The position numbers were made by a program, and so were the translations under genes. The notes under the pieces were generated by a model that saw only the letters and a list, made by a program, of their open reading frames with translations, was not told the origin of the DNA and did not search any database. Source: Calliopum simillimum (lineage: Eukaryota > Arthropoda > Insecta > Diptera > Lauxaniidae). From it: a stretch of DNA of 64,000 bases. The DNA lies in NCBI GenBank assembly GCA_951812925.1, contig OX638372.1:86511058-86575057 (forward strand), given 5' to 3'. Shown in pieces: positions 14,436-59,795 of the stretch; within the stretch, counting starts at the first letter, position 1, and each line of letters starts with the position of its first letter.

Positions 14436-14521
14436 ATAGTAGTTTAGTTTATTGGTATAACAAGTTAGAAAAGGCGAAGAAATAGGACCCTAATGGTACA
14501 AATGGTTGAATTAGAAAAAAA

Positions 14522-15186: not shown

Positions 15187-15233
15187 AATACTTGTGTAAA
15201 ATTCTCAAACTTGAAGACCAGAACCAAATGATT

Positions 15234-20074: not shown

Positions 20075-20159
20075 TAGGGGAGGGGGGGCTAGTGTGGACA
20101 ATTTTTATATAATTACAAAATTATATATGTAAATATATCATTTTGTGAGGAAGGATGAA

Positions 20160-23011: not shown

Positions 23012-23045
23012 TATAAGATAGTTGTGCAGATACGAATGTTCAGTT
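23012..23045 (+). promoter_or_regulatory. LTR core promoter: TATA box and TCAGTT initiator
   Basis: TATAAGA at 23012-23018 lies 30 bases upstream of the A in TCAGTT at 23040-23045. That is the expected arthropod TATA-initiator spacing, and many insect retrotransposons start at TCAGT. The same pair occurs in the 3' LTR near 31973. This predicts an RNA start at about 23042. Confidence 0.65.
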
Positions 23046-23290
23046 TTAGTTTCAGTTTCTAGTTCAGTTTTTCATCATAATCACTAAGTTTAGAATCGAA
23101 TTTTTGGATTTCCCAACACTTTGCCTATCTGCACCTTATCTTGATTATGTTTCATTTATTTCGTGAATAGAGGCAACACCCACCCCCATTTTCCCTGAGC
23201 TAAGCTGAAGCAGAGCTAGGCGTGCAGAGCCCGCTTCGACGTCACGGAACAAAAATGTTTATTTATCTACTCAAATCGTTACATAATTAA

Positions 23291-23308
23291 TGGCGCCCAA
23301 CGTGGGGC
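23291..23308 (+). other. primer binding site, tRNA-Lys
   Basis: TGGCGCCCAACGTGGGGC is complementary to the 3' end of insect tRNA-Lys including CCA. It lies 7 bases after the 5' LTR. The same primer is used by Ulysses and Osvaldo of Drosophila. It primes minus-strand DNA synthesis. Confidence 0.93.
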
Positions 23309-24088
23309 ATAGGATATCGCTTTTAAAAAAATTTTTCCAACACCTGGAAAACTACTATTCTCGCCCCATTGCTTAATATCCCATCATATTTTCCTTTTCC
23401 CTCGTCCAAAATTCCTTTAAGTAATATAATATTTTTTTTTTTTCTCTTTGTTCTCCTTTAAAAACATTTAGTAAATTTATCTCGATTAGCTTTTCTTTTT
23501 GGAAATGCAGAGGTCTGGCTAGCTCGGATTCTGACCGAAAGAATACTTATTATCGTATACAAATGATTTTCCGGTTTATTTTGTTTAAAACTTAGTACTG
23601 CTTGTTTTTTTTGAATCTGCATGACTAGTGCCTATTTGGTCATGTACGAAATACAGCAACGTTCTAATGTTTTTCTACTTTTTTTTTTGGAATTGGCTCT
23701 TAAGTTTTTTTACTTTGAGATTGTATTGTATCTGTAGATTTACGGTTATAAACTCGTTAAAAATTTTGACCAATTTCTAATTTAATTTTCCCTTTATAGT
23801 TTTTTTGGTTTAACTTCTATGTCCACACAACTTACAGTGATCTTGGTATGTTAATTTTGTGTCCTCCTAGATTACCTACAATTAAGTCCTCAAATGATGG
23901 TAAAATAAATTTTCTCTTGTATATTAAACATTTTTCTTTTTATATATCGTTCTTGAAATTTACGTTTGACGGAAATTTTAAGTACGTACAAAAATTTTGT
24001 ACTCTTACATTTTACGTTTTCTCGAAAAATTTTATCGTTGATATTCAGTTTATCGGGGTTACTCAATAGTTCGCTTCGGTACGTCTAA
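23309..24088 (+). other. retrotransposon 5' leader
   Basis: About 780 bases lie between the primer site and gag, with poly-T runs. A small upstream frame at 23848-24069 ends just before gag. A packaging signal is expected here but cannot be identified by eye. Confidence 0.5.
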
Positions 24089-25663
24089 ATGATAATGCCA
24101 GTCACTCGCAGTTCAGAAGATATTCCCAGTCAAGTAGCAGAAGCTTCTGCTAATGAGACTCTGTGTCCCATTTGCAGTGAGATACTAGGGAGCGATGGTA
24201 ATAAAGTAGAAACTCCATGTAGACACAAGTTCCACAGCATTTGCCTTAGCACATGGTTGGAAAATAATTCCACTTGTCCCGTTTGTAGACAATTTTGTAA
24301 TACATCCGAATTGACAGATATTCGGGTTACAGACCTTAATATGCCAGTTCAATCTAGCGGTGCAAATCGGAGTAGAGGTGGTGCAATTTCGCGTGACCGA
24401 CCTCAGACTCGAATGTATGCTCGTATGCAAGCTTCGAGTGCTGCAAGCCATCAAACTCAAGGATTTCCACACCAAAGTCCACGTCCGAGGCGCAATGATT
24501 CACCTGGACGTTTACATCAAAACCAGATTAGTGAAGATAGAGTTCACGAACTTATTTCAAACTCTTTGCATAGTTTTCGCAATGAAGTTGCTTCAACTAT
24601 TTCTAACGAGTTGCAAACCTTATTCAGAAATTTAAATTTGAACGCAAATTCACGTCCGGTACCAGCCAATACTCCTCAAGAGGATCCCCTCTCATTTGAA
24701 CGAAATGTTCCTCCCAGAATTTATCAACCTAATGACCAACCAAACGAATCACACCGGCCAAATCGTTCTTTTGCTGCTTCTGATCGACTTTCCATGTCCA
24801 ACGAACGCATTTCGAAAATAATTTACAATTGGCACATACAATTTAATGGCTCGTCAGATGATATTAGCGTGGACGAATTCATTTATAGAATAAATATGTT
24901 AACGTCAGTTCACCTAAACGGTAACTTTAACGTCCTTTGCCAACATGTGCATTCCCTTTTCGAGGGTAAGGCCAAGCAATGGTTTTGGCGCTATCATCGG
25001 CAAGAGGATAATATAGACTGGTTTGAGTTATGCGAAGCATTACGTAGGCAATACAAACACTTTACGACCGATTTCGATATAAAAGACGACATTCGTAAAC
25101 GAAAGCAAAAAAGTTCAGAATCTTTCGATGTCTATTTAGACGAAGTAGTAGGTATGTGTGATCGTCTAAGGGTTCCTATGAGCGAGAATGAACTGGTAGA
25201 AACAATAATTCGAAATTTAAAGCCAGACTTACGCCACGAGCTACTGCATTTTAATTTTAATAGCATTTCGGATCTAAGGCGCGAAGTTTATAAGCATGAA
25301 AAATTTCTGAAGGATATTCAGTTCACTTCTTTTCCACGACAATTTGCTTCACGGAAACACGTTTCAGAAATTTACCACGAACCAGATTCTTTAGAAAATT
25401 GTTCGACTCATGCAGAAAATGTTTCTAATGATGATGTCGAAATCAATGCGATAAGCAAATCCCCTTTGAAATGTTGGAACTGTGAAGAAGATGGTCACGG
25501 TTACCAGGAATGCCTTCAACCGCGGCGCATATTTTGTTATGGATGTGGGGCAGTAGATATTTATAAACCTACTTGTCCCAAATGTTCCCCTAAGGCGGAA
25601 AACTTCTTAGCGGATGTTCGACAGCGGAAAAACGGACGTCCGCCGATGCGTCCTCGGATGTAA
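24089..25663 (+). CDS. gag: Gag with N-terminal RING-H2 finger and C-terminal zinc knuckles
   Basis: This 524-residue structural protein forms the retrotransposon particle and binds its RNA. Residues 26-66 form a textbook RING-H2 finger (C26, C29, C44, H46, H49, C52, C63, C66; spacing C-x2-C-x14-C-x-H-x2-H-x2-C-x10-C-x2-C), the fold of E3 ubiquitin ligases. A low-complexity linker follows. A retrotransposon capsid-like region runs at about 245-410 (WHIQFNGSSDD, then FEGKAKQWFWRYH, then LKPDLRHEL). A CCHC knuckle follows (C462, C465, H470, C475), then a C-x2-C-x9-C-x2-C motif (C483 to C499). The RING is in the same uninterrupted frame as capsid, so it is part of Gag. Ligase activity is inference. 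The start is the first ATG; a second lies two codons later. Confidence 0.92.
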   Translation: MIMPVTRSSEDIPSQVAEASANETLCPICSEILGSDGNKVETPCRHKFHSICLSTWLENNSTCPVCRQFCNTSELTDIRVTDLNMPVQSSGANRSRGGAISRDRPQTRMYARMQASSAASHQTQGFPHQSPRPRRNDSPGRLHQNQISEDRVHELISNSLHSFRNEVASTISNELQTLFRNLNLNANSRPVPANTPQEDPLSFERNVPPRIYQPNDQPNESHRPNRSFAASDRLSMSNERISKIIYNWHIQFNGSSDDISVDEFIYRINMLTSVHLNGNFNVLCQHVHSLFEGKAKQWFWRYHRQEDNIDWFELCEALRRQYKHFTTDFDIKDDIRKRKQKSSESFDVYLDEVVGMCDRLRVPMSENELVETIIRNLKPDLRHELLHFNFNSISDLRREVYKHEKFLKDIQFTSFPRQFASRKHVSEIYHEPDSLENCSTHAENVSNDDVEINAISKSPLKCWNCEEDGHGYQECLQPRRIFCYGCGAVDIYKPTCPKCSPKAENFLADVRQRKNGRPPMRPRM

Positions 25664-28600
25664 ATAGAATAACGATTTTAAAAAATGATATTGATCATCA
25701 ACAAAATTTTGCAAATTCTTTGCAGCCCAATAACCATTTTCTTCAATTTAAACCATTTCATGTACGCCTTCTTGAATATCAAGAGGCTCGTGCAAAAATT
25801 TTTTCACAACCATCAAAGTCACATTTACGCTCGACACTTCGTTTACGTAAATTTTGGCAACGTAAGAAGTCTCTACGGAAATGTGTTCTTTCTTGTGTTG
25901 CGTTTCAACAATCGGATAATCGACCATACGCTAAGCTCAACATTTTCGATCAAAATTATTTTGCTCTTTTAGATAGTGGAGCCAACAAAAGTTGTGTTGG
26001 TGGAAGCTTGGCACAGGCCATAATATCAGATCACAAATATTGTAAATTTTTAAATAACGTTAAAACTGCCGATGGACAAAAACAGCAGGTCGTAGGTTCG
26101 ATTGAGATTTCAGTGTTATATGATCAAATTACTAAAAACTTTGAGTTTCTCATTGTTCCTTCCATAAAACAAGATGTTATCTGTGGTGTCGATTTTTGGA
26201 AGGTATTTGGGTTAAAAATTAGTTTTGATAATTATGTTAGCGAAGTCGTCGAGGCAGAATCTTCTGATAAATTATATTTTACTGCAGATCAGCAGAAAAA
26301 ATTAGATGCAACCATTGCGGTTTTCCCATCTTTTGAGACTGATGGTCTTGGATTAACAACCATGATTGAGCACACTATCGATACTGAAAGGGCGGCTCCT
26401 ATAAAGCAAAGATATTATCCAATATCTCCCGCCAGAGAGAAGTTGCTTTGCCAAGAAATCGATAGGATGCTCAACATGGGAGTTATTGAAGAGGCTGAAA
26501 GTTCTCCCTGGTCTTCGCCTGCAGTGTTAATTGTTAAACCAGATAAGGTCCGCTTTTGTCTAGACACACGTAAGCTTAATGAAGTTACGATAAAAGACGC
26601 GTACCCTATTCCAAACTTAGACGGCCTGATTGCTCGATTACCCCCTGTGCAGATAATTTCAAAAATTGACTTAAAGGATGCCTTTTGGCAGATCAAACTC
26701 GATTCTTCTTCACGCCAAAAAACTGCATTTACTATTCCAAATAGACCGCTTTACCAATTTACACGCATGCCATTCGGGCTGTGTAACGCACCTCAGACCA
26801 TGTGCAGGCTCATGGACAAGGTGATTCCATATAATTTAAAAACCCATGTTTTCGTTTATTTAGACGATCTATTGGTGGTGTCATCGTCTTTTAAAGAACA
26901 TCTTGTTCATTTGCTAGAGGTTGCGTCACAGTTGCGTAAAGCAGGTCTAACGATTAACGTGAAGAAGAGCAGTTTTGGCTTAAAAGAAGTAAAATATCTT
27001 GGTTTTGTGGTGGGTTACGGCTGTCTTAAAGTGGATCCAGATAAAGTTAAGGCGATTACTGACTACCCTGTTCCGAAAAGTATTCGTCAAATGCGGCAAT
27101 TCTTGGGAATGATTGGTTGGTATCGTCGTTTTATCAACGACTATTCTTCTATAACTTTTCCCTTGACAGAACTGCTTTGTAAAAATAAAAAATTTGAGTG
27201 GAATTCTTCGGCTCAAAGTGCTTTTGACTCCATTAAAGACAAGCTCTCTTCAGCACCCTTTCTAGTGCATCCCAACTATGAAAAAGAATTTATTGTCCAA
27301 TGTGATGCCAGCCGTCATGGAATTGGTGGTCTCTTAGCTCAAATTGACGATAATGGCGATGAACGCCCAATCGCGTTCATGTCGCAAAAATTGAATAAAG
27401 CTCAGAGAAACTATTCCGTGACGGAGTTGGAGTGCCTTGCAGTGGTACTGGCGATAAAAAAATTTCGTCCCTATATCGAAGGACATAAATTCCGAGTAGT
27501 GACGGACCATGCTAGTTTAAGGTGGTTGATGAGGCAGAAGGATTTAAATGGAAAATTAGCACGATGGGCCTTAAAACTACAAGGATATGATTTTAGTATA
27601 GAGCATCGAAAAGGAACTGAAAATGTGGTGGCAGACGCTCTGTCGCGAGCATTTGACGACGAAGAAAATGAAGTTGGAGCTATAGAAATTGAAGTGTTAC
27701 CTGAAATTGACTTAGATTCACCAGCTTTTGAATCAGAAGAATATAAGCTTCTTAGGAAAAAATTAAACTCAGAAAACTTGCCAGATTTTCAAATCAGCGA
27801 AAAATTTATATATCATCGTGATGATTTTTCTTCAGATCGATCTGATAGTTGGAAACTTGTGGTCCCTGAAGAGCTACGTGAAAAAGTGATTTATGCGGCT
27901 CACGATACGCCAAGTGCAGCACATGGTGGTATCGCGAAAACTCTTGACCGAATCCGGCGTCATTTTTATTGGCCAGGACTTGTGTTACAAGTGAGAAATT
28001 ACGTTCTTGCATGCGAATTATGCAAAACATCGAAAGTCCCGACACGATCTCTTCGTCCGCCTATGGGTCAGATGTCAGAAAGCGCAAGACCTTTCCAAAA
28101 GCTGTACCTCGACTTAATTGGACCTTTCCCTAGGTCAAAGAAGGGCAACATAGGAGTCTTTATCATACTAGATCACTTTTCAAAATTCACATTTTTAAGT
28201 CCTCTTCGTAAATTTTCCTCTAAAAATATTATTGAATTTCTTAAATCACAAATTTTTGATTGCTTCGGTGTGCCTGAAGTGATTGTATCCGACAATGGCA
28301 GTCAGTTTAAAAGCCATGAATTCGAGTCATTCCTAAAAAAATTTGGTGTTAGCCATGTATGTACAGCGGTTTACTCCCCTCAGTCAAACGCGTCTGAAAG
28401 AGTCAACCGTTCGATAAATGAAGCGTTACGTTCTTACCTACGCAAGGATCAACGTGACTGGGACTACTATTTAAGTAGCATCAATGGCGCTCTTAGAAAG
28501 AGCATACACCAATCAGTAGGCCAATCTCCATATTATATTGTTTTCGGCCAACATATGGTAACGCATGGAGATGACTTCAAGCTTCTCAAGAACCTCAATT

Positions 28601-28923
28601 TCGTGTCTGAAAATGATACAAAACTAGCACGCGAAGACGAGTTCAAAATATTGCGAAATTCAATTTTATCCAAATTAAAAAAATCTTACGAGAAAAATGC
28701 TCAAACTTATAATCTTCGAGCAAGACCAAGAAATTTTGTCGTGGGCGAGGAAGTTGTTCACAGAAATTTTGCACAAAGCAGCATGATTAAAAACTTTAAT
28801 GCTAAACTAGCACCAACAGGCATAAAAGCCAAAATTAAGAAGAAATTGGGAAACTCCTACTACATACTAGAAAACCTGCAAGGTAAAGAAATTGGAACAT
28901 ATCACGCAAAAGATATCTGGTGA
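25594..28923 (+). CDS. pol: Pol polyprotein: protease, reverse transcriptase, RNase H, integrase
   Basis: The frame is open from 25594, in the -1 frame relative to gag and overlapping it by about 70 bases, so Pol is probably made as a Gag-Pol frameshift product of about 1.1 thousand Pol residues. Domains in order: aspartic protease with DSGA (DSG codons 25972-25980); reverse transcriptase with YLDD at 26857-26868; RNase H starting near CDAS at 27301 and ending near HRKGTENVVADALSR; integrase zinc domain with H27901, H27922 and CELC at 28012-28023; integrase core with D (28111), D (28291) and E (28396). The domain order is that of Ty3/gypsy. No stop or frameshift lies within it. No chromodomain is evident at the C-terminus. 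Confidence 0.96.
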   Translation, partial: GGKLLSGCSTAEKRTSADASSDVNRITILKNDIDHQQNFANSLQPNNHFLQFKPFHVRLLEYQEARAKIFSQPSKSHLRSTLRLRKFWQRKKSLRKCVLSCVAFQQSDNRPYAKLNIFDQNYFALLDSGANKSCVGGSLAQAIISDHKYCKFLNNVKTADGQKQQVVGSIEISVLYDQITKNFEFLIVPSIKQDVICGVDFWKVFGLKISFDNYVSEVVEAESSDKLYFTADQQKKLDATIAVFPSFETDGLGLTTMIEHTIDTERAAPIKQRYYPISPAREKLLCQEIDRMLNMGVIEEAESSPWSSPAVLIVKPDKVRFCLDTRKLNEVTIKDAYPIPNLDGLIARLPPVQIISKIDLKDAFWQIKLDSSSRQKTAFTIPNRPLYQFTRMPFGLCNAPQTMCRLMDKVIPYNLKTHVFVYLDDLLVVSSSFKEHLVHLLEVASQLRKAGLTINVKKSSFGLKEVKYLGFVVGYGCLKVDPDKVKAITDYPVPKSIRQMRQFLGMIGWYRRFINDYSSITFPLTELLCKNKKFEWNSSAQSAFDSIKDKLSSAPFLVHPNYEKEFIVQCDASRHGIGGLLAQIDDNGDERPIAFMSQKLNKAQRNYSVTELECLAVVLAIKKFRPYIEGHKFRVVTDHASLRWLMRQKDLNGKLARWALKLQGYDFSIEHRKGTENVVADALSRAFDDEENEVGAIEIEVLPEIDLDSPAFESEEYKLLRKKLNSENLPDFQISEKFIYHRDDFSSDRSDSWKLVVPEELREKVIYAAHDTPSAAHGGIAKTLDRIRRHFYWPGLVLQVRNYVLACELCKTSKVPTRSLRPPMGQMSESARPFQKLYLDLIGPFPRSKKGNIGVFIILDHFSKFTFLSPLRKFSSKNIIEFLKSQIFDCFGVPEVIVSDNGSQFKSHEFESFLKKFGVSHVCTAVYSPQSNASERVNRSINEALRSYLRKDQRDWDYYLSSINGALRKSIHQSVGQSPYYIVFGQHMVTHGDDFKLLKNLNFVSENDTKLAREDEFKILRNSILSKLKKSYEKNAQTYNLRARPRNFVVGEEVVHRNFAQSSMIKNFNAKLAPTGIKAKIKKKLGNSYYILENLQGKEIGTYHAKDIW
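25627..25653 (+). promoter_or_regulatory. candidate -1 frameshift site between gag and pol
   Basis: In the overlap, the gag codons CGG AAA AAC give the heptamer G AAA AAC at 25627-25633. It is followed at once by GGACG and, ten bases later, its complement CGTCC, which could form a small stem. The heptamer is not a perfect X XXY YYZ, so the exact slip site is tentative; a -1 shift somewhere in 25594-25660 is required by the frames. Confidence 0.4.
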
Positions 28924-29103
28924 AAATAGTGGTCTACTTCAGCTTATCAATTTTTAGAAAAACCAACCTAAGACCTTAATGATGAAATTTTGAGGTGAAT
29001 TTTATACTAAAATTCAAAGGCAATAAAACATTTGCTAGAATTGCAAATTTCGACTTCCTTTTCCAGTTTCTATCCTTTGGTAATCCGTGGTTAGCACCTG
29101 TTT
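28924..29103 (+). other. 3' untranslated region; no env and no obvious polypurine tract
   Basis: Only 180 bases separate the Pol stop from the 3' LTR, so there is no envelope gene. The bases just before the LTR (GTGGTTAGCACCTGTTT) are not purine-rich, which is unusual because a polypurine tract normally primes plus-strand synthesis here. Confidence 0.6.
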
Positions 29104-32100
29104 TGTGAGGAAGGATGAATTATGGCCTATATTGTTCAATAGCGTCTTTGCTGATTTTATTTAATTTTTCGTAGTCAAAATTATGATATAAAAGTCTACC
29201 CTTTGTTTCATAGACATAAACTTTATCGTTGGGGATATCGTAACCCAAAAAGGTTGTGACATTCGCTAAATTATAGCATCTCGAATGACCCGCACGTTTT
29301 CGAGTTTGCAGTCCGCTGTTTAGTATTTTGCGTTTCTCTTGAAAGTATGTAGCAACCAAGTTGAGATATATATATGCAATTTTTTTGCTATGCGTTTTGG
29401 TAAAATAAACTCCGTTGCATTTGGGATACCCTACAGCTGGCACTTTGAGTTTTTGTTGAAAGTTACAAATGAAAAAGAAAATTTTTACTGATGGTTTATA
29501 AAATTATATGCATATTATCGTTTATCTCGTTAGGATATTGTCACTCTTGGGTGGGATTTACGACATGGAAAATCATGGAATTTGAGCTTTAGCTATTTTA
29601 AATTTCTTATGCAAAATTAAATTTCATGCATATTATTCACTTTTGTCATATAAACTTTGCATTTGCTAGATAAATAACTTCAGACATTGCTTTCATACTT
29701 CTGACATAACTAATTGAAAACATTTTGCAAAAGAAAACCGCCGTAGGGAACACTGAAAATGTTTCGGAAATATATTATAATCGGTGTAAAAATAAAGTTT
29801 CGCATAAATGGGTATGGGCATAGTACTTAGTAGTCGGTGTGACCGATTATAAATTCGGATCAAACCGAGTACCGTACGGTCATTTGGTCGTTTGGCAAGT
29901 TGCACATGCATAGCCTTAGACCTTCAGAGAAAATTATTTCTCTGCCATTTGGCGATCACCTCGAAAAGCTTGCAGTACGTGTAATTTGGACGTGAGAAAA
30001 TTCAAAAAAAAATACATATATTTCAAAAACGTGGTTTTCTTCACCAAAAGGTGACACGCGTTATACTAAAAAGTTGATTAAAATTCATCACTATTGCAAC
30101 TAAATTTTACTGGTTATTGAGGACCTCAAATTCATAGCAGTGGAATTTAAGAAAATTTGCATTGCTTTTCTACCAACATTGGTAAGTCATCATGAATTTA
30201 CTTCAGTGAACAACCTAGAAACTATCGTTTCCCCTCTTGATCGTTTCAGCGGAGCGCCCTGTGTGTCTTGCGTAGCCACAGGAGTCGCTCCAGTGTTAAT
30301 AAGATCCATTTCGACACTTAGCGTCCAGCAAAATTCACGCTGTGCAAGAGCAGTCACCATTTTGTATGCTGAACATATATGCATGATAAAGCTGTCCACA
30401 AATTAAATTTCATGTCAAGGCGGTCTACAAATTTAAATTTGCAAAAGTCACACGGATTTTCATTGTTAAAAGAATCACCACAAATTTATGGTCTTAGATG
30501 ATCTTGAAACTAAAGATTACATTAGTTAAAAATTAAATTTTATCCATCACTCGTTTCAAAAACAAAAATTGGAAGTCAGAAGAATATATTAACATCTTGA
30601 TACGGTGGGGCATAAAGACTCGCTTAGCCTATTCTTCTGAATCTTCGTAAAAAAATAGAGAAATATCTTAAAATTAGAATTCGTCAAAATATTTTAATGT
30701 AAATACTTACTGGTTCTACAGAGTCCTATTAAACTTAATTGTTACCGCGATTTAGAATCTAACTTAACTTAACTTAAACTTAAAAATTATGCATTCATAA
30801 AGTTGTTTAGATTTATAGAATATTTCGTATTGGTGATAAATATGAATACCCTAAAAAAAAAAAAAAAAAAATAAATTAATCTTAGAATCATAATTAATAT
30901 TATTGTAATTAAAACTTAATTTGGCTAAAGAGATTACTCAGATAAAAAAATGAATTAATACTTAAAATATTAATAACTTACTTAAATCTAATGAATTTAA
31001 AATCGAAAAATCTAAATCTAAAATTACTCTAAGAAAGGTTAACGTACATTAATAGAAAAGGTGTATTCCATTTCATAATGTGGTAATTGCATTGCATCTA
31101 ATAATTTGTAAGATACTTTCATCTGTGCCAATCGTCAGTTCATCGTGCGGATCAACGAAGGCCTTCAGAGATCAGCAGAGAGCAGAGATTAAAGGTATGA
31201 ATTGGTTTTATATGGTGAAATTCTAAATTAGTTTATGTTTTATTTGCAATGTTTCAATTCAATCATACCACCTAAGTGTTAATCAGTGTTTGCTTGTTTC
31301 GCGTAAGAAAAGTAAAGAGAGAGGTGAATATAAGATTTCCACTCTCACTGCAGTAGCTTTTGCTATTCCATTTTACACTAGTTCCTAAAGATGTAAATTC
31401 ACCTTTCGTTGTCTATGGCCCATGCTAGTAAAGTTTTTTTTTGTTGATTTTAGTAACAAGTACAGTAAACGCTGGTTAACGCGATTCGTAAATATAAGTT
31501 AAATACTTTTTCTTACAAATTACTCGCAATTTTTTTTTTGAATTCATTATTTGTATAGAATTAAGGAATAGATAAGAGCATTATTTCAATCTTCAAATGC
31601 AAGGAATTGCGAATATAGGATATATCTAGAACACCCATTTTAAGATTGAAGTAGTGCAGTATTTATTAAGATTTATGTATTGTTATAAAACACTTACTGT
31701 GGTAACTTTCATTTTGAAATTCACACGAGCTATTAACTTTAAAATATGTGGCTAATTTGTACTAATGTTTATTAAATTTTTGAATATGAATTGCTAAATT
31801 TTTCATTATTTTACCATCTAGAGGCTATGTAGGTTAGGTTGGGAGAGGATCTTACGATCTCACAAGGGTTATTGAAATTAACCATTTTTATTCGATAACA
31901 GGATGGGCGGGTTGAGACGAAGAAGACAACAACACCAATGTTCTTCTTCTCTTTTCATACCAAGGTCGCGTGTATAAGATAGTTGTGCAGATACGAATGT
32001 TCAGTTTTAGTTTCAGTTTCTAGTTCAGTTTTTCATCATAATCACTAAGTTTAGAATCGAATTTTTGGATTTCCCAACACTTTGCCTATCTGCACCTTAT

Positions 32101-32244
32101 CTTGATTATGTTTCATTTATTTCGTGAATAGAGGCAACACCCACCCCCATTTTCCCTGAGCTAAGCTGAAGCAGAGCTAGGCGTGCAGAGCCCGCTTCGA
32201 CGTCACGGAACAAAAATGTTTATTTATCTACTCAAATCGTTACA
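29104..32244 (+). repeat. 3' LTR, 3141 bp
   Basis: It is nearly identical to the 5' LTR. The visible differences are one substitution (G at 29890 for A at 20930) and one extra T in the run near 31530. It ends CGTTACA followed by the target duplication ATTT. It carries the same antisense frame (29120-29443) and sense frame (30140-30406) as the 5' LTR. Confidence 0.95.
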
Positions 32245-46590: not shown

Positions 46591-46914
46591 GGAATTTTCT
46601 GGATGGCATAAATTTACATACCAAAAAATTGGAAAAAAATTCAATAAAACTTGGAAGTGAAAATTATGTCTGCTAGAAATCGAGTAACCATCCTCAGAAT
46701 ATTCTGGATTGCAAATGCTCCCTATCGAGAAAGGAATATATATTCGATGTAAGGGCTACTGTATCTACCAAATAAAAAAATACACCTAAATTTTGAAGAA
46801 ATTTTTGTATCAAAATGGCACTACAGTGGCCTATGTGCCTAGTTTCAGTGTGAACCCTTAGCCAAGTGAGTCCTGAAGGCAACTACTAGTACTTTATTGC
46901 TAACAATTGTCTGA
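46591..46914. other. no gene recognised
   Basis: Short AT-rich spacer between the LINE remnant and a DINE-1-like copy. Nothing recognised. Confidence 0.4.
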
Positions 46915-47405
46915 GTCAAATTTGGTTCGATTATCTCAAAAAACGCTTTTTTAACGTTTTGAAGCATTTTCTTATAAGGGAGGTGCCACGCTCTCTTGTC
47001 TGAATTTGCTGAGTTTTTGTCAGAGCTTCCGCTTACAATTCTTAGTATTTATGTGTATTTTGGTTTCATTGTCGTGAAAAATACCCCTAAAGTTGCATTT
47101 TGAATATATTTTTTGTATGGGCGGTAGGCGTGTCTGTTGACCGATTTTGCTCATTTTCAATCCCACGAGTAAACTTTGACAACGGAGGTAGAGTACCAAA
47201 TTTCATTGCATTATCTTGCTCAGTTTTTTCCAAAAAATGTATTTCCACACACAGCCAGTCAGCCACCCAACCAGCTAGCCAGACAGACGGAAATGGCTTT
47301 ATCGACTCGGGAGGTGAAGAATATATATACTTTTCTATATCTGCCAAGCCTCCAAGCGTTACAAACGGCAAGACAAAGTGAATATACCCTGGGAGTAGGG
47401 TATAA
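46915..47405 (-). mobile_element. INE-1/DINE-1-like element, copy F, 3' truncated
   Basis: The plus strand shows ATGGGCGGTAGGCGTGTC, CAGACAGACGG, AAGAATATATATACTTTTC and the end CCCTGGGAGTAGGGTATAAA. The GGCC hairpin end is absent, so the element is truncated on the left. Confidence 0.7.
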
Positions 47406-47899
47406 AAAAGTTATCGATACATCATTATAAATTTTGTGTAATTGGATTCTGGAACACCTTAAATTTTGGAACATGGCTGGTAAACTAAATTTTATAGAAA
47501 CCCAATGATCTAATTTTTGTAATATTAATCTTTAATAATTTTTGAGAAAATTTTTATTTTTCCGCTCGAAAACATACGATTGCAGCTTTTGCCATCTTTG
47601 CACAGATATAGATTACAAAATACACGAGACTTGTTCGGATGCCCGCTCGTCATCTGAGCAGTGGTTTCTAGAGTTTGACTGTAGTTGGAAATTATCTTAA
47701 TATAACTTTCGAAATTAGTGACGCCAGCTTTTCTTGGAATTTTAGTCTTTATTTTTTAACTAATCTAAAGTAAACATTTTAAGACTTGGCCCACGAATAA
47801 AAATAATGGCTCCATGTAAAACTATAAAAGTTGCCTTAAGGTTCTCTTTCTAGATGCGCAGTTTTTATATCAATAAAGGCCAAAACTAGACAAAGTGAG
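47406..47899. other. no gene recognised
   Basis: Unique AT-rich spacer that ends at the target duplication of the foldback element. Confidence 0.4.
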
Positions 47900-47908
47900 C
47901 TTTTATTA

Positions 47909-48330
47909 AGCTGTGTGAACTTGGCACCCAAGTTTAACAAAAAATGATTTTTTTTTTATAAATCGATAGCATATTTGTTGTAGATGTTTGTAGTGATTTG
48001 CATATCGTTTGTAGTTTAACGGTTTTCGAGAAATCGAAGTTTGAAAAAAACGTTAGCACCCCACTTTTGAAATCGGTAAAACTGAAAACGCAGTTTCGTT
48101 TGAAATCGTTTGTAGATGTTTGTAGTGATCTTCATTTCCATTTTGGGCCAACCGTTTTTGAGATATCGAAGTTTAAAAAAAAAGTTAGCCCCCCACATTT
48201 CGGAATCATAAAACTGAAAAAGCAGTTTTATTTGCAACCGTTTGTAGTTGTTTGTAGTGATTTTCCTTTCGTTTGTAGTTCAAAGGATAAAAAGTTACAA
48301 ACGATTTTCTAAAACTCGAAACCGGTTTTT
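47909..48330 (+). repeat. left terminal domain of the foldback element
   Basis: About 420 bp with a looser period of about 130 bp marked by GTTTGTAGTGAT near 47989, 48118 and 48250. It is mirrored by 59330-59786. The frame at 47998-48312 stays open because this period is close to a multiple of three, and it has an antisense-mirrored counterpart at 59383-59628. I regard it as repeat-driven, not a gene. Confidence 0.8.
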
Positions 48331-50545
48331 TTTAATATTGAATTGACCCAAAAACTAAGTATGCAGTTCGCTTAACAATCGTTTGTAGTCGTAGAAAAAC
48401 ACTTTTTTTTCGTTCGTTGTTCAAAGAATAAAAAACTACAAACGATTTTCTAAAATTTGAAACGGTTATTTTTGAAATATTAATTTTATCCAAAATCCAA
48501 GTATGCAGTTCGCTTAACAATCGTTTGTAGTCGTAGAAAAACACTTTCTTTTTGTTTGTAGTTCAAAGAATAAAAAACTACAAACGATTTTCTAAAATTT
48601 GAAACGGTTATTTTTGAAGTATTAATTTCATCCAAAATCCAAGTATGCAGTTCGCTTTACAATTGTTTGTAGTCGTAGAAAAACACTTTCTTTTTGTTTG
48701 CAGTTCAAAGAATAAAAAACTACAAACGATTTTCTAAAATTTGAAACGGTTATTTTTGAAGCATTAATTTTACCTAAAATCCAAGTATGCAGTTCGCTTA
48801 ACAATCATTTGTAGTCGTAGAAAAACACTTTCTTTTCGTTTGTAGTTCAAAGAATAAAAAACTACAAACGATTTTTTAAAATTTGAAACGGTTATCTTTG
48901 AAATATTAATTTTACCTAAAATCCAAGTTTGCAGTTCGCTTCAGAATCGTTTGTAGTCGTAGAAAAACATTATCCTTTCGTTTGTAGTTCAAAGAATAAA
49001 AAACTACAAACTATTTTTTAAAATTTGAAACGGTTATCTTTGAAATATTAATTTTACCTAAAATCCAAGTTTGCAGTTCGCTTCAGAATCGTTTGTAGTC
49101 GTAGAAAAACATTTTGCTTTCGTTTGTAGTTCAAAGAATAAAAAACTACAAACGATTTTTTAAAATTTGAAACGGTTATCTTTGAAATATTAATTTTACC
49201 TAAAATCCAAGTTTGCAGTTCGCTTCAGAATCATTTGTAGTCGTAGAAAAACATTATGCTTTCGTTTGTAGTTCAAAGAATAAAAAACTACAAACGATTT
49301 TTTAAAATTTGAAACGGTTATCTTTGAAATATTAATTTTACTTAAAATCCAAGTTTGCAGTTCGCTTCAGAATCATTTGTAGTCATAGAAAAACATTTCG
49401 CTTTCGTTTGTAGTTCAAACAATAAAAAACTACAAACGATTTTTTAAAATTTGAAACGGTTATCTTTGAAATATTAATTTTACCTAAAATCCAAGTTTGC
49501 AGTTCGCTTCAGAATCGTTTGTATTCGTAGAAAAACATTTTGCTTTCGTTTTTAGTTCAAAGAATAAAAAACTACAAACGATTTTTTAAAATTTGAAACG
49601 GTTATCTTTGAAATATTAATTTTACCTAAAATCCAAGTTTGCAGTTCGCTTCAGAATCGTTTGTAGTCGTAGAAAAACATTTTCCTTTCGTTTGTAGTTC
49701 AAAGAATAAAAAACTACAAACGATTTTTTAAAATTTGAAACGGTTATCTTTGAAATATTAATTTTACCTAAAATCCAAGTTTGCAGTTCGCTTCAGAATC
49801 GTTTGTAGTCGTAGAAAAACATTTTCCTTTCGTTTGTAGTTAAAAGAATAAAAAACTACAAACGATTTTTTAAAATTTGAAACGATTATCTTTGAAATAT
49901 TAATTTTACCTAAAATCCAAGTTTGCAGTTCGCTTCAGAATCGTTTGTAGTCGTAGAAAAACATTTTGCTTTCGTTTGTAGTTCAAAGAATAAAAAACTA
50001 CAAACGATTTTTTAAAATTTGAAACGGTTATCTTTGAAATATTAATTTTACCTAAAATCCAAGTTTGCAGTTCGCTTCAGAATCGTTTGTCGTCCTAGAA
50101 AAACATTTTCCTTTCGTTTGTAGTTCAAAGAATAAAAAACTACAAACGGTTTTTTAAAATTTGAAACGGTTATCTTTGAAATATTAATTTTACCTAAAAT
50201 CCAAGTTTGCAGTTCGCTTCAGAATCGTTTGTAGTCGTAGAAAAACATTTTACTTTTGTTTGTAGTTCAAAGAATAAAAAACTACAAACGATTTTTTAAA
50301 ATTTGAAACGGTTATCTTTGAAATATTAATTTTACCTAAAATCCAAGTTTGCAGTTCGCTTCAGAATCGTTTGTAGTCGTAGAAAAACATTTCGCTTTCG
50401 TTTGTAGTTCAAAGAATAAAAAACTACAAACGATTTTTTAAAATTTGAAACGGTTATCTTTGAAATATTAATTTTACTTAAAATCCAAGTTTGCAGTTCG
50501 CTTCAGAATCGTTTGTAGTCATAGAAAACATTTTCCTTTTGTTTG
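48331..50545 (+). repeat. left arm: about 15 tandem 142-bp hairpin units
   Basis: TCAAAGAATAAAAAACTAC recurs every 142 bases from 48421 to 50409. Each unit contains a perfect 11-bp stem, CGTTTGTAGTT with AACTACAAACG around a 12-base loop, then AAAATTTGAAACGGTTATC, a TTAATTTTACC stretch, AATCCAAGTTTGCAGTTCGC and a third CGTTTGTAG. The outermost units (48421-48900) are most diverged, and the inner ones are nearly identical. Confidence 0.92.
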
Positions 50546-50811
50546 GTTGTACGTATGTAGTTGAAACAAAGCAAACGTTATTGTTACAAAAGAACTGGGC
50601 AAAGCGCAGTCAGCGTAGAATTTCTCGGAACTACGATACTCATCAAAAAATGTTTTTGTTGAGGTTTGAATTGAAATATTCACTTTAAATCCAACTATGC
50701 AATTTGTTTTAGAATCGTTTGTAGTTGTAGCAAAACGTTTTTTCATTTGTAGTTTATAAAATAGAAAGCTACAAACGATTTTTAAAACTTAAAGCGGCTA
50801 TTTTTGAAATA

Positions 50812-51129
50812 CAGTGAACTCGCGATATTATTAACATTTCAACATATGAACATCCCAATAAATGAGCACTTTTCGTACAAAATATGAACTTCCTTCAAAA
50901 GCCCTAAAATATGAAGATAATTTTTTTGTCTAAAGTTTGTTTTGAGTTTAGAAATAAAAAGATATTTTTTTCGAAATTATTGAAACTTAATTATTTTTTT
51001 TTTAATTCATACGCCTTTTTAAATATAAACAAAATAGTAGTTATATTATCGCGAGCACACTGCAATTCGTTAATATGAACATTCTCGCAAAAACGATTTT
51101 AATTAGTTCATATTATCGTGGGCCAACTG
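50812..51129. mobile_element. 318-bp pogo-like MITE inside the foldback element
   Basis: It is flanked by TA (50810-50811 and 51130-51131). The ends are CAGTGAACTCGCGATA and, reversed, CAGTTGGCCCACGATAATA. CAGT-starting ends with a CGATA-type body and TA duplication fit pogo/Tigger-type MITEs. It interrupts a degenerate 142-bp unit. Confidence 0.65.
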
Positions 51130-51748
51130 TAAAATTTTTTCGTAAATTCCAAGTATGGAAATCCTATTAGAATCATTTGTAGTCGTAGCAAAACATTTTT
51201 TTAGCGTTTGTGGTTCAATCAAAGCTAGCGTAACTGAGCCAAACGCAGTCAGCGAGGAATTTTTCGGAACTACAACACCCATCCAAAGATGTTTTTGTTG
51301 GTTTTTGGATTGAAATATTGAATTCACTTTAAATACAATTATGCAATTTGTTTTAGAATCGTTTGTACACAGTAAAAAATTAAAGATTAATTTTGATTCC
51401 ATTCGGTATTGATTTTAAACTGTTTTGGTATTAAATTGAAAATTTATTCAAAACAAGGTTGAAATTTCGTCCGGTAGGTTTTAGTGTTATCACAAAAAGG
51501 AATTGCTTTTAAACCATTTAGTTTTTTAAATTTTGTAGTACCAAAGTGGCTTAAAAACAATCCTAAATGACTTTAAATTCAAAAAACTAATCATTTTTAG
51601 ATTTAAAATAAGTCCAAGAAACGTATTAAAATATTCTCTGCGCCAATTGTAATACTTTTGGTTTGAAACTTATGCCATCAAAGTTTTAATTTATAGTACA
51701 GTAAAGTTGTCAAAAAATGTATGAAGACCTAGGAAAAATTGCGCACTG

Positions 51749-52562
51749 CAATTTTTTTTGCTTAATGTTTTTAGGACTACTATAAAAGCTTAACGTCAAA
51801 AAGGTGACCTCCCCACCCTTGCGCATTAGCCGACATCTTGAAATATGTTTGATTCAATTTATCTCGGACAATAAAATTCTACGTTATTTTGATCTCGGAC
51901 GCGATATCCATAAGTTGATATTTTGGGCGGTAGAGGCCGCCAAAGTTACAAAAAATCAGTTTTTTCGATTTGCACCCACTGGGTGTTGATTTTTCAAAAA
52001 GTTGTGATGATATAATTTGTAGCGCTTGCAAAAGCAAGCGAAATAATTTTTAAATGAAATCATTATCTCAATTGGTTCTCGAGTTATAGTAAGTAAAAAT
52101 GTAAAAATTGCAGTGCGCAATTTTTAAATAAAATGATTATCTCAATTGGTTCTCGAGTTATTACAAGTTAAAAATAAAATGCGTGCAAAAAATTTATTGT
52201 TTATGTATTTGAACATTGATCACATAATACTTAATAACTCGAGAACCAATTGAGATAATCACTTCATTTAAAATTTATTTTGCTTGTTTTTGCAAGTGCT
52301 ACAAATTATGTTATCATAATTTTTTGAAAAATCAACACCCAGTGGGTGCAAATGGAAAAAACTGATTTTTTGCAACTTTGGCGGCCTCTACCCTCAAAAT
52401 ATAAACTTATGGATATCGCGTCCGAGATCAAAAAAACGTAGAATTTTATTGTCCGAGATAAAATGAATCAAACATATTTCAAGATGTCGGCTAAGGCGCA
52501 AGGTTGGGGAGGTTACCTTTTTGACGTTAAGTGGTCCTAAAAACATTAAGCAAAAAAAAATT
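51749..52562. repeat. 814-bp palindrome at the centre of the foldback element
   Basis: The left arm holds GCTTAATGTTTTTAGGAC, AACGTCAAAAAGGTGACC and CACCCACTGGGTGTTGAT; the right arm holds their complements in reverse order. ATCTCAATTGGTTCTCGAGT occurs twice on the left (about 52067 and 52139) and once reversed near 52235. The arms are not made of the 142-bp unit, so this is a separate module or a nested MITE. Confidence 0.75.
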
Positions 52563-55500
52563 TCAAATTTTAAAAAATCGTTTGTAGTTTTTTATTCTTT
52601 GAACTACAAACGAAAGGAAAATGTTTTTCTACGACTACAAACGATTCTGAAGCGAACTGCAAACTTGGATTTTAGGTAAAATTAATATTTCAAAGATAAC
52701 CGTTTCAAATTTTAAGAAATCGTTTGTAGTTTTTTATTCTTTGAACTACAAACGAAAGGAAAATGTTTTTCTACGACTACAAACGATTCTGAAGTGAACT
52801 GCATACTTGGATTTTAGGTAAAATTAATATTTCAAAGATAACCGTTTCAAATTTTAAGAAATCGTTTGTAGTTTTTTATTCTTTGAACTACAAACGAAAG
52901 AAAAATGTTTTTCTACGACTACAAACGATTCTGAAGCGAACTGCAAACTTGGATTTTAGGTAAAATTAATATTTCAAAGATAACCGTTTTAAATTTTAAA
53001 AAATCGTTTGTAGTTTTTTATTCTTTTAACTACAAACGAAAGGAAAATGTTTTTCTACCACTACAAACGATTCTGAAGCGAACTGCAAACTTGGATTTTA
53101 GGTAAAATTAATATTTCAAAGATAACCGTTTCAAATTTTAAAAAATCGTTTGTAGTTTTTTATTCTTTGAACTACAAACGAAAGCAAAATGTTTTTCTAC
53201 GACTACAAACGATTCTGAAGCGAACTGCAAACTTGGATTTTAGGTAAAATTAATATTTCAAAGATAACCGTTTTAAATTTTAAAAAATCGTTTGTAGTTT
53301 TTTATTCTTTTAACTACAAACGAAAGGAAAATGTTTTTCTACGACTACAAACGATTCTGAAGCGAACTGCAAACTTGGATTTTAGGTAAAACTAATATTT
53401 CAAAGATAACCGTTTCAAATTTTAAGAAATCGTTTGTAGTTTTTTATTCTTTGAACTACAAACGAAAGAAAAATGTTTTTCTACGACTACAAACGATTCT
53501 GAAGTGAACTGCAAACTTGGATTTTAGGTAAAATTAATATTTCAAAGATAACCGTTTCAAATTTTAAAAAATCGTTTGTAGTTTTTTATTCTTTGAACTA
53601 CAAACGAAAGGAAAATGTTTTTCTACGACTACAAACGATTCTGAAGCGAACTGCAAACTTGGATTTTAGGTAAAATTAATATTTCAAAGATAACCGTTTC
53701 AAATTTTAAGAAATCGTTTGTAGTTTTTTATTCTTTGAACTACAAACGAAAGGAAAATGTTTTTCTACGACTACAAACGATTCTGAAGTGAACTGCATAC
53801 TTGGATTTCAGGAAAAATTAATATTTCAAAGATAACCGTTTCAAATTTTAAGAAATCGTTTGTAGTTTTTTATTCTTTGAACTACAAACGAAAGAAAAAT
53901 GTTTTTCTACGACTACAAACGATTCTGAAGCGAACTGCAAACTTGGATTTTAGGTAAAATTAATATTTCAAAGATAACCGTTTTAAATTTTAAAAAATCG
54001 TTTGTAGTTTTTTATTCTTTTAACTACAAACGAAAGGAAAATGTTTTTCTACCACTACAAACGATTCTGAAGCGAACTGCAAACTTGGATTTTAGGTAAA
54101 ATTAATATTTCAAAGATAACCGTTTCAAATTTTAAAAAATCGTTTGTAGTTTTTTATTCTTTGAACTACAAACGAAAGCAAAATGTTTTTCTACGACTAC
54201 AAACGATTCTGAAGCGAACTGCAAACTTGGATTTTAGGTAAAATTAATATTTCAAGGATAACCGTTTTAAATTTTAAAAAATCGTTTGTAGTTTTTTATT
54301 CTTTTAACTACAAACGAAAGGAAAATGTTTTTCTACGACTACAAACGATTCTGAAGCGAACTGCAAACTTGGATTTTAGGTAAAACTAATATTTCAAAGA
54401 TAACCGTTTCAAATTTTAAGAAATCGTTTGTAGTTTTTTATTCTTTGAACTACAAACAAAAGGAAAATGTTTTTCTACGACTACAAACGATTCTGAAGTG
54501 AACTGCATACTTGGATTTTAGGTAAAATTAATATTTGAAAGATAACCGTTTCAAATTTTAAAAAACCGTTTGTAGTTTTTTATTCTTTGAACTACAAACG
54601 AAAGGAAAATGTTTTTCTACGACTACAAACGATTCCGAAGCGAACTGCAAACTTGGATTTTAGGTAAAATTAATATTTCAAAGATAACCGTTTCAAATTT
54701 TAAAAAATCGTTTGTAGTTTTTTATTCTTTGAACTACAAACGAAAGGAAAATGTTTTTCTACGACTACAAACGATTCCGAAGCGAACTGCAAACTTGGAT
54801 TTTAGGTAAAATTAATATTTCAAAGATAACCGTTTCAAATTTTAAAAAATCGTTCGTAGTTTTTTATTCTTTGAACTACAAACGAAAGAAAAATGTTTTT
54901 CTACGACTACAAACGATTCTGAAGCGAACTGCAAACTTGGATTTTAGGTAAAACTAATATTTCAAAGATAACCGTTTTAAATTTTAAAAAATCGTTTGTA
55001 GTTTTTTATTCTTTTAACTACAAACGAAAGGAAAATGTTTTTCTACGACTACAAACGATTCTGAAGCGAACTGCAAACTTGGATTTTAGGTAAAACTAAT
55101 ATTTCAAAGATAACCGTTTCAAATTTTAAGAAATCGTTTGTAGTTTTTTATTCTTTGAACTAGAAACGAAAGGAAAATGTTTTTCTACGACTACAAACGA
55201 TTCTGAAGCGAACTGCAAACTTGGATTTTAGGTAAAATTAATATTTCAAAGATAACCGTTTCAAATTTTAAAAAATCGTTTGTAGTTTTTTATTCTTTGA
55301 ACTACAAACGAAAGAAAAATGTTTTTCTACGACTACAAACGATTCTGAAGCGAACTGCAAACTTGGATTTTAGGTAAAATTAATATTTCAAAGATAACCG
55401 TTTCAAATTTTAAAAAATCGTTTGTAGTTTTTTATTCTTTTAACTACAAACGAGAGGAAAATGTTTTTCTACGACTACAAACGATTTTGAAGCGAACTGC

Positions 55501-58500
55501 AAACTTGGATTTTAGGTAAAATTAATATTTCAAAGATAACCGTTTCAAATTTTAAAAAATCGTTTGTAGTTTTTTATTCTTTGAACTACAAACAAAAGGA
55601 AAATGTTTTTCTACGACTACAAACGATTCTGAAGCGAACTGCAAACTTTGATTTTAGGTAAAATTAATATTTCAAAGATAACCGTTTCAAATTTTAAAAA
55701 ATCGTTTGTAGTTTTTTATTCTTTGAACTACAAACGAAAGCAAAATGTTTTTCTACGACTACAAACGATTCTGAAGCGAACTGCAAACTTGGATTTTAGG
55801 TAAAACTAATATTTCAAAGATAACCGTTTCAAATTTTAAAAAATCGTTTGTAGTTTTTTATTCTTTTAACTACAAACGAAAGGAAAATGTTTTTCTACGA
55901 CTACAAACGATTCTGAAGCGAACTGCAAACTTGGATTTTAGGTAAAATTAATATTTCAAAGATAACCGTTTCAAATTTTAAAAAATCGTTTGTAGTTTTT
56001 TATTCTTTGAACTACAAACGAAAGCAAAATGTTTTTCTACGACTACAAACGATTCTGAAGCGAACTGCAAACTTGGATTTTAGGTAAAATTAATATTTCA
56101 AAGATAACCGTTTTAAATTTTAAAAAATCGTTTGTAGTTTTTTATTCTTTTAACTACAAACGAAAGGAAAATGTTTTTCTACGACTACAAACGATTCTGA
56201 AGCGAACTGCAAACTTGGATTTTAGGTAAAACTAATATTTCAAAGATAACCGTTTCAAATTTTAAGAAATCGTTTGTAGTTTTTTATTCTTTGAACTACA
56301 AACAAAAGGAAAATGTTTTTCTACGACTACAAACGATTCTGAAGTGAACTGCATACTTGGATTTTAGGTAAAATTAATATTTGAAAGATAACCGTTTCAA
56401 ATTTTAAAAAACCGTTTGTAGTTTTTTATTCTTTGAACTACAAACGAAAGAAAAATGTTTTTCTACGACTACAAACGATTCCGAAGCGAACTGCAAACTT
56501 GGATTTTAGGTAAAATTAATATTTCAAAGATAACCGTTTCAAATTTTAAAAAATCGTTTGTAGTTTTTTATTCTTTGAACTACAAACGAAAGGAAAATAT
56601 TTTTCTACGACTTCAAACGATTCTGAAGCGAACTGCAAACTTGGATTTTAGGTAAAATTAATATTTCAAAGATAACCGTTTCAAATTTTAAAAAATCGTT
56701 TGTAGTTTTTTATTCTTTGAACTACAAACGAAAGGATAATGTTTTTCTACGACTACAAACGATTCTGAAGCGAACTGCAAACTTGGATTTTAGGTAAAAT
56801 TAATATTTCAAAGATAACCGTTTCAAATTTTAAAAAATCGTTTGTAGTTTTTTATTCTTTGAACTACAAACGAAAGGAAAATGTTTTTCTACGACTACAA
56901 ACGATTCTGAAGCGAACTGCAAACTTGGATTTTAGGTAAAATTAATATTTCAAAGATAACCGTTTCAAATTTTAAAAAATCGTTTGTAGTTTTTTATTCT
57001 TTTAACTACAAACGAAAGGAAAATGTTTTTCTACGACTACAAACGATTCTGAAGCGAACTGCAAACTTGGATTTTAGGTTAAACTAATATTTCAAAGATA
57101 ACCGTTTCAAATTTTAAGAAATCGTTTGTAGTTTTTTATTCTTTGAACTACAAACGAAAGCAAAATGTTTTTCTACGACTACAAACGATTCTGAAGCGAA
57201 CTGCAAACTTGGATTTTAGGTTAAACTAATATTTCAAAGATAACCGTTTCAAATTTTAAGAAATCGTTTGTAGTTTTTTATTCTTTGAACTAGAAACGAA
57301 AGGAAAATGTTTTTCTACGACTACAAACGATTCTGAAGCGAACTGCAAACTTGGATTTTAGGTAAAATTAATATTTCAAAGATAACCGTTTCAAATTTTA
57401 AAAAATCGTTCTTAGTTTTTTATTCTTTGAACTACAAACAAAAGGAAAATGTTTTTCTACGACTACAAACGATTCTGAAGCGAACTGCAAACTTGGATTT
57501 TAGGTAAAACTAATATTTCAAAGATAACCGTTTCAAATTTTAAGAAATCGTTTGTAGTTTTTTATTCTTTGAACTAGAAACGAAAGGAAAATGTTTTTCT
57601 ACGACTACAAACGATTCTGAAGCGAACTGCAAACTTTGATTTTAGGTAAAATATATATTTCAAAGATAACCGTTTCAAATTTTAAAAAATCGTTTGTAGT
57701 TTTTTATTCTTTGAACTACAAACGAAAGCAAAATGTTTTTCTACGACTACAAACGATTCTGAAGCGAACTGCAAACTTGGATTTTAGGTAAAATTAATAT
57801 TTCAAAGATAACCGTTTCAAATTTTAAAAAATCGTTTGTAGTTTTTTATTCTTTTAACTACAAACGAAAGGAAAATGTTTTTCTACGACTACAAACGATT
57901 CTGAAGCGAACTGCAAACTTGGATTTTAGGTAAAATTAATATTTCAAAGATAACCGTGTCAAATTTTAAAAAATCGTTTGTAGTTTTTTATTCTTTGAAC
58001 TACAAACGAAAGGAAAATGTTTTTCTACGACTACAAACGATTCTGAAGCGAACTGCAAACTTGGATTTTAGGTAAAATTAATATTTCAAAGATAACCGTT
58101 TCAAATTTTAAAAAATCGTTTGTAGTTTTTTATTCTTTGAACTACAAACGAAAGCAAAATGTTTTTCTACGACTACAAACGATTCTGAAGCGAACTGCAA
58201 ACTTGGATTTTAGGTAAAATTAATATTTCAAAGATAACCGTTTCAAATTTTAAAAAATCGTTTGTAGTTTTTTATTCTTTGAACTACAAACGAAAGCAAA
58301 ATGTTTTTCTACTACTACAAACGATTCTGAAGCGAACTGCAAACTTGGATTTTAGGTAAAATTAATATTTCAAAGATAACCGTTTCAAATTTTAAAAAAT
58401 CGTTTGTAGTTTTTTATTCTTTGAACTACAAACGAAAGGAAAATGTTTTTCTACGACTACAAACGATTCTGAAGCGAACTGCAAACTTGGATTTTAGGTA

Positions 58501-59330
58501 AAATTAATATTTCAAAGATAACCGTTTCAAATTTTAAAAAATCGTTTGTAGTTTTTTATTCTTTGAACTACAAACGAAGGCGAAATGTTTTTCTATGACT
58601 ACAAACGATTCTGAAGCGAACTGCAAACTTGGATTTTAAGTAAAATTAATATTTCAAAGATAACCGTTTCAAATTTTAAAAAATCCTTTGTAGTTTTTTA
58701 TTCTTTGAACTACAAACGAAAGCATAATGTTTTTCTACGACTACAAACGATTCTGAAGCGAACTACGAACTTGGATTTTAGGTAAAATTAATATTTCAAA
58801 GATAACCGTTTCAAATTTTAAAAAATCGTTCGTAGTTTTTTATTCTTTGAACTAGAAACAAAAGGAAAATGTTTTTCTACGACTACAAACGATTCTGAAG
58901 CGAACTGCAAACTTGGATTTTAGGTAAAATTAATATTTCAAAGATAACCGTTTCAAATTTTAAAAAATCGTTTGTAGTTTTTTATTCTTTGAACTACAAA
59001 CGAAAGGATAATGTTTTTCTACGACTGCAAACGATTCTGAAGCGAACTGCAAACTTGGATTTTAGGTAAAATTAATATTTCAAAGATAACCGTTTCAAAT
59101 TTTAAAAAATCGTTTGTAGTTTTTTATTCTTTGAACTACAAACGAAAGGAAAATGTTTTTCTGCGACTACAAACGATTCTAAAGCGAACTGCAAACTTGG
59201 ATTTTAGGTAAAATTAATATTTCAAAGATAACCGTTTCAAATTTTAAAAAATCGTTTGTAGTTTTTTATTCTTTGAACTACAAACGAAAAGAAAGTGTTT
59301 TCTACGACTACAAACGATTGTTAAGCGAAC
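52563..59330 (-). repeat. right arm: about 49 tandem 142-bp hairpin units, inverted
   Basis: The same unit as the left arm in reverse complement. TTTTTATTCTTTGAACTAC recurs at a 142-base period from about 52589 to 59405, with rare 1-base length changes. Frames such as 54609-54809 and 56455-56655 are repeat by-products, since 142 is not a multiple of three. Shared variants (for example the CTTTTAACTAC version of the hairpin) reappear at multi-unit intervals, suggesting block duplication within the array. Confidence 0.92.
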
Positions 59331-59795
59331 TGCATACTTAGATTTGAGGTGAGTTCAATATAAAAAAAACCGGTTTCGGGTTTTAGAAAATCGTTTGTAG
59401 TTTTTTATTCTTTGAACTACAAACAAAAGAAAAATCACTACAAACATCTACAAACGGTTGCAAATAAAACTGCGTTTTCAGTGTCATGATTTCGAAAAGT
59501 GGGGGGCTAACTTTTTTTTTAATATTCGATATCTCAAAAACGGTTGGCCCAAAATGGAAATGAAGATCACTACAAACAACTACAAACCATTTCAAACGAA
59601 ACTGCTTTTTTAGTTTTGCCGATTTCAAAAGTGGGGTGCTAACTTTTTTTTTAAACTTTGATTTCTCGAAAACCGTTAAACTACAAACGAAATGGAAATC
59701 ACTACAAACATCTACAGAAAAAATGCTATCGATTTTTAAAAAAAAATTAAATTTTTTTTAAAATTGGGTGCCAAGTTCACACAGCTCTTTTATTA

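Follow-up and report, generated by a model that had tools for sequence, protein, structure and literature searches.

The locus studied here raises the question of what kind of sequence brings two long tandem arrays into opposite orientation at one site of a fly genome, and how it came to lie there. The arrays are found in 64,000 bp of contig OX638372.1 of Calliopum simillimum (Diptera, Lauxaniidae); this whole stretch was analysed and is called the window below. We observed that both arrays belong to one element of 11,878 bp (47909-59786), known from one copy, within the 64-kb window. It is very probably a non-autonomous fly foldback DNA transposon, which inserted once at CTTTTATTA with transposase supplied in trans, most likely by a member of the MULE superfamily.

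Borders and anatomy of the element

The two ends carry AGCTGTGTGAACTTGGCACC in inverted orientation (47909-47928 on the plus strand, 59767-59786 on the minus strand). These were the sole two sites in the window at up to 3 mismatches, and no match of this type appeared in 100 shuffles. The first 23 bp are the same at both inverted ends, and comparison of the terminal 520 bp, end versus end, gave 477 identities, 41 mismatches and 4 gaps. A perfect 9-bp duplication, CTTTTATTA, adjoins both tips. As a 9-mer, CTTTTATTA is not rare in this AT-rich window (3 occurrences, approximately 3 expected). Nevertheless, the exact pair at the two borders is not a chance match, because a random pair of 9-mers from outside the element agrees with a probability of only about 2e-5. 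We found no tip or unit sequence beyond the borders in the window; the only matches there were to a 93-bp segment of the inner domain. The initial annotation had described an 11.9-kb element with a perfect 9-bp duplication and had read it as a single mobile foldback-type insertion. The size and the duplication were confirmed by ends unique in the window and by CTTTTATTA at both borders, and a single mobile insertion is the best reading of an exact duplication at the tips of inverted arms. Two marks of the foldback class, long inverted arms of tandem repeats and a target-site duplication at the tips, were found.

Table 1. Parts of the element and its target-site duplication, with positions in the window.
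Feature	Position	Strand
Left target-site duplication, CTTTTATTA	47900..47908	+
Left terminal domain, 351 bp, degenerate 132-bp repeats and GTTTGTAG motifs	47909..48259	+
Left arm array, 16 units of approximately 142 bp	48260..50545	+
Inner domain (degenerate unit sequence), first copy of the 93-bp segment at 50593-50685	50546..50811	+
Nested MITE-like insertion, CAGT...ACTG, 318 bp, TA on both sides, amid degenerate unit sequence	50812..51129	
Inner domain continued, degenerate unit sequence with second copy of the 93-bp segment (51232-51324)	51132..51379	+
Middle stretch without unit similarity	51380..51751	
Hairpin block, adjoining the right array	51752..52559	
Right arm array, 48 units of approximately 142 bp and a 62-bp partial unit	52561..59435	-
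Right terminal domain, 351 bp, inverted copy of the left domain	59436..59786	-
Right target-site duplication, CTTTTATTA	59787..59795	+

The degenerate 132-bp repeats of the terminal domain were reported at approximately 2.3 copies across 47978-48278. The 142-bp unit matched bases 88-243 of the ends at approximately 59% over 167-168 aligned positions (E = 5e-4 and 2e-5), and stronger matches between terminal domain and unit extend into the first unit itself. The terminal domain and the unit are weakly related.

The arms are inverted arrays of the 142-bp unit, as first annotated, with the correction that their lengths are very unequal (approximately 2.6 kb on the left and 7.2 kb on the right; array lengths are those of the assembly, and the window contains no N). 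The outer left units, L01-L04, are more diverged. The unit contains a perfect 12-bp inverted repeat with a 12-base loop, and such a repeat was present in 43/64 units. Single-stranded folding of the unit was no better than that of its shuffles (z = -0.67).

The centre had been annotated as a single module. We observed instead degenerate unit sequence, a MITE-like insertion nested in it, a stretch without assignment and a block of hairpin arms. The right border of the MITE-like insertion is less certain, since its end motif is also present at 51043-51065. The hairpin block, of 0.8 kb, consists of three collinear inverted-arm pairs (51752-52087 with 52234-52559) whose arms are 91-97% complementary, and it sits exactly at the mid-unit break of the right array. 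No clear target duplication was seen at this block, so that insertion and deletion are indistinguishable. Two short stretches at 10370-10487 are similar to the 93-bp inner segment, which may therefore be a dispersed repeat that the element acquired.

No stop-to-stop frame of at least 110 residues was found within 48313-59382. A Pfam scan covered all 20 stop-to-stop frames of at least 40 residues overlapping the centre (50546-52560) and two frames overlapping the ends. It revealed no transposase in the centre, where two matches lay far below the cut-offs (DUF1258, E = 0.022; PBECR4, E = 0.071). The two end frames are translations of the terminal domains, and no Pfam family matched them. A transposase remnant in the centre was thus rejected as a candidate, no Pfam transposase being present among the 20 frames. 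The earlier statement that no transposase is encoded holds for all frames scanned. The claim drawn from it, that something else must have moved the element, needs tempering, since such dependence is usual for these elements, as FB4 illustrates (PMC8277862).

Elsewhere in the window, an LTR retrotransposon (20141-32244) has unusually long LTRs of approximately 3.14 kb that are 99.94% identical, TG...CA ends and ATTT at both borders, and is therefore probably a very recent insertion. Its gag has an N-terminal RING finger; the gag relatives with an organism name (4/96) came from Eurosta, Rhagoletis and two Lucilia, all flies. A Mariner/Tc-like transposase frame (17344-18390, 349 codons, no stop) had a best database relative, among the matches listed, that was 97% identical, and its named relatives, among 120 of 327 listed, included flies, a bee and a beetle. 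There is a homeodomain exon at 5969-6307 (Pfam Homeodomain, 5.5e-12), which may resemble Vsx proteins. A dispersed, partly inverted repeat family occupies 1627-2589, 7708-10052, 14512-15203 and 46908-47420, its listed pairs longer than 200 bp being approximately 65-91% alike in the self-comparison of the window.

Relation to known elements

Tetris of D. virilis is the nearest described element in anatomy, closer than FB. In the available part of its description (PMC4079207), Tetris of D. virilis and D. americana consists of a flanking domain, tandem units of approximately 220 bp, an inner domain and a variable middle. Its duplications are 8-10 bp, no transposase was found in it, and the element was proposed as a Mutator. 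By description, the same layered arm is present here, and a 37-bp similarity between the Tetris flanking domain and unit parallels the weak relation between terminal domain and unit in our element (PMC4079207). The two differ in unit length (approximately 220 bp versus 142 bp) and in the extent of the inverted repeats, which as described reach 1,735 bp in Tetris, versus arms of approximately 2.6 and 7.2 kb here. The Tetris unit has been amplified into satellite-like arrays, and fiber-FISH revealed long arrays between two flanking domains (PMC4079207); in our element, by comparison, long arrays lie within one sequenced, duplication-flanked copy.

The initial annotation had drawn a parallel with the architecture of Drosophila FB elements and regarded the unit as undescribed in flies. 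The parallel is apt, but Tetris is anatomically closer, and with its description the architecture is already known in flies (PMC4079207). As to the unit, searches of an open-access library listed no title or opening of an abstract on this 142-bp sequence, and the papers listed for a 142-bp repeat concerned mealworm and fission yeast. Among the tip and unit strings searched for in the open-access literature, only the FB4 string was found, in one paper. Viral contigs contained 0 exact matches to the 20-bp tip and 0 to the 34-bp unit core. Two prokaryote matches to a 19-mer of the tip were dismissed as chance, with approximately 1.9 expected and blastn matches to the element at both loci of at most 21 bp.

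FB4 (FB-NOF of D. melanogaster) shares with our element 9-10-bp duplications, long inverted ends and a non-autonomous character. The text available describes it as more likely a MULE, moved by an unknown transposase, and its inverted ends measure approximately 700 bp, versus arms of approximately 2.6 and 7.2 kb here (PMC8277862). The tip of our element agreed with the 20-base FB4 tip at 11/20 positions (AGCT....GAA..TGG...C; shuffle p = 0.005), this tip being the sole FB sequence compared, while the other tips in the same passage matched at 4/20 (hobo), 4/20 (P) and 2/20 (roo) (PMC9682801). Since 386 of the 127,962 20-mers of the window match the FB4 tip equally well, the resemblance is a lead and not a proof, and at the level of sequence it is suggestive only. 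Internal repeats of FB are approximately 31 bp long and in this respect differ from the 142-bp units.

Two further elements were compared through the available parts of their descriptions. Tm1, a Mutator/Foldback element of Meloidogyne, has composite inverted ends with a variable number of tandem units and duplications of 8-10 bp, mostly 9; the two ends of one element are on average 93.15% identical, and one class carries a Phantom-like Mutator transposase (PMC3169594). It resembles our element in its composite inverted ends with tandem units and its 9-bp duplications, and differs in its unit of approximately 14 bp in 1-9 copies, its nematode host and its different, asymmetric tips (PMC3169594). 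Galileo of Drosophila likewise has long inverted ends with tandem repeats, which expand independently at each end, but it has a P-type transposase and inverted ends of up to approximately 1.26 kb (PMC3573991, PMC3688188).

The 9-bp duplication makes the Mutator-like superfamily the most likely one, an argument also made in print for FB4 (PMC8277862), Tetris (PMC4079207) and Tm1 (PMC3169594). MULE target duplications are about 8-11 bp long, mostly 9, and those of hAT and P are 8 bp; a 9-bp duplication, which lies within the MULE range, does not by itself prove a MULE. We classify the sequence as a foldback-type element, probably Mutator-like and probably of a new family, filed apart from FB, Tetris and Galileo. 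It is unlikely that a foldback-like element of some other superfamily (P/Galileo type, hAT or Merlin) grew its long repetitive arms independently. In the excerpts available the foldback shape occurs in several superfamilies, Galileo with its P-type transposase among them (PMC3573991, PMC3688188, PMC3169594), but the duplications of Galileo are 7 bp, not 9 as here (PMC3573991), and neither P nor hobo came near the agreement of the FB4 tip (4/20 each versus 11/20, PMC9682801).

Growth of the arrays and history of the arms

The right array grew through block duplication. Blocks of 6 units recur in it at offsets of 13 and 7 units (the comparison was detailed for offsets 7, 13 and 20). The block R21-26 recurs as R34-39 with 6 differences summed over the block, and R36-41 recurs as R43-48, at the inner end of the array, with 5 differences summed; single unit pairs differ on average at 4.4 positions. 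With 16 and 48 units that are homogeneous and include repeated blocks, the arms resemble satellite DNA. That a satellite block was simply inverted by a chromosomal rearrangement, without transposition, is nevertheless highly improbable, as an exact 9-bp duplication lies at the very tips, the terminal domain is present at both outer ends, and outside the borders the window holds matches to the 93-bp segment but none to the tip or unit.

The left arm was globally aligned with the outer part of the right arm. Differences between the arms numbered 27/351 in the terminal domain, 13/141 in the first unit and 38/426 in units 2-4, and then 15, 10, 7 and 15 per 426 bp. The ends therefore differ by 8.1% (40/492) and the inner arrays by 2.8% (47/1704; Fisher p = 6e-7, the test omitting the intermediate 426 bp with 38 differences, which diverge like the ends). 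Long repeats are hard to assemble and the array lengths could be wrong, but an artefact in which one arm falsely mirrors the other is scarcely credible: a fold-over should yield near-identical arms, and here the ends diverge by 8.1% and the arms are unlike in length and repeated blocks.

Returning to a genuine foldback element with two arms, we compared its core units, a set without L01-L04 and without the right unit nearest the tip. Their divergence was 2.9% within the left arm, 3.0% within the right arm and 3.1% between the arms, and 10/50 distinct core variants were common to both arms. The order of variants in L05-L16 matched that in R02-R14 with a score of 26.7 (19.4 +/- 2.8 in 2000 shuffles, p = 0.0075; 14.7 for the reversed order). 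The p value is optimistic, since the region was chosen after inspection of the unit alignment. This was the top score among 34 right-arm windows. The top-scoring window starts closer to the tip than L05-L16, by three units; the one at exactly equal depth scored 22.4 and those further in approximately 6-12. The order of the unit variants is thus common to both arms, and their depth almost so, an observation that is supported but post hoc. Such an order is unexpected from independent array growth and expected if one arm served as template for the other or if paired inverted arms exchanged sequence. Together with the contrast between ends and inner arrays (8.1% versus 2.8%), it makes copying or exchange of array sequence between the arms probable.

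A possible binding motif, movement and meaning

Of the occurrences of the motif CGTTTGTAG in the window, 173 lie in the element and 1 in the other 52,122 bp. The consensus unit contains three CGTTTGTAG motifs, two of them inside the perfect 12-bp inverted repeat, and the motif also recurs near the tips. At each end, the first GTTTGTAG begins at base 78. Eight motif sites, of which six fall in the terminal domain and two in the first unit, occupy identical positions at the two ends within 412 bp of the tip, and in this region 1/64 motif positions were mismatched versus 32/348 elsewhere (p = 0.04). Within the array, the motif was not conserved above the rest of the unit in 59 core units (10/27 versus 34/113 sites variable, p = 0.50), and selection on it there is unsupported. 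In the Galileo text available, the THAP domain of the transposase binds tandem-repeat sites, the nearest of which lies approximately 70 bp from the end, a spacing comparable with base 78 here (PMC3688188). By this analogy, the motif near the tips is a plausible subterminal transposase-binding site; a binding role in the array is unproven.

Briefly, we propose that a transposase supplied in trans would have inserted the element once at CTTTTATTA, possibly recognizing CGTTTGTAG near the tips. Its long arms, two opposed arrays of the motif-rich 142-bp unit, would have expanded through local block duplication by unequal exchange or slippage. Copying or exchange between the inverted arms, perhaps by conversion, would have involved part of the array and may have preserved the likeness of the arms as their terminal domains diverged. 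A broader reading, which we offer tentatively, is that of an undescribed FB-related family in which a satellite-like array grows within mobile borders, is homogenised between the arms by exchange inside the element and is possibly carried as one transposon; an autonomous relative would then reveal the FB-type transposase.

In summary, the element gives a sequence-level view of the state that fiber-FISH detected in Tetris, a long homogeneous array between terminal domains, and here such an array carries an intact target duplication. Diverged ends versus similar inner arrays suggest sequence exchange between inverted arms, which would be a route of satellite homogenisation absent from ordinary head-to-tail arrays. 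The FB4-like tip, if upheld in other copies, would provide a starting point in the search for the transposase of FB elements.
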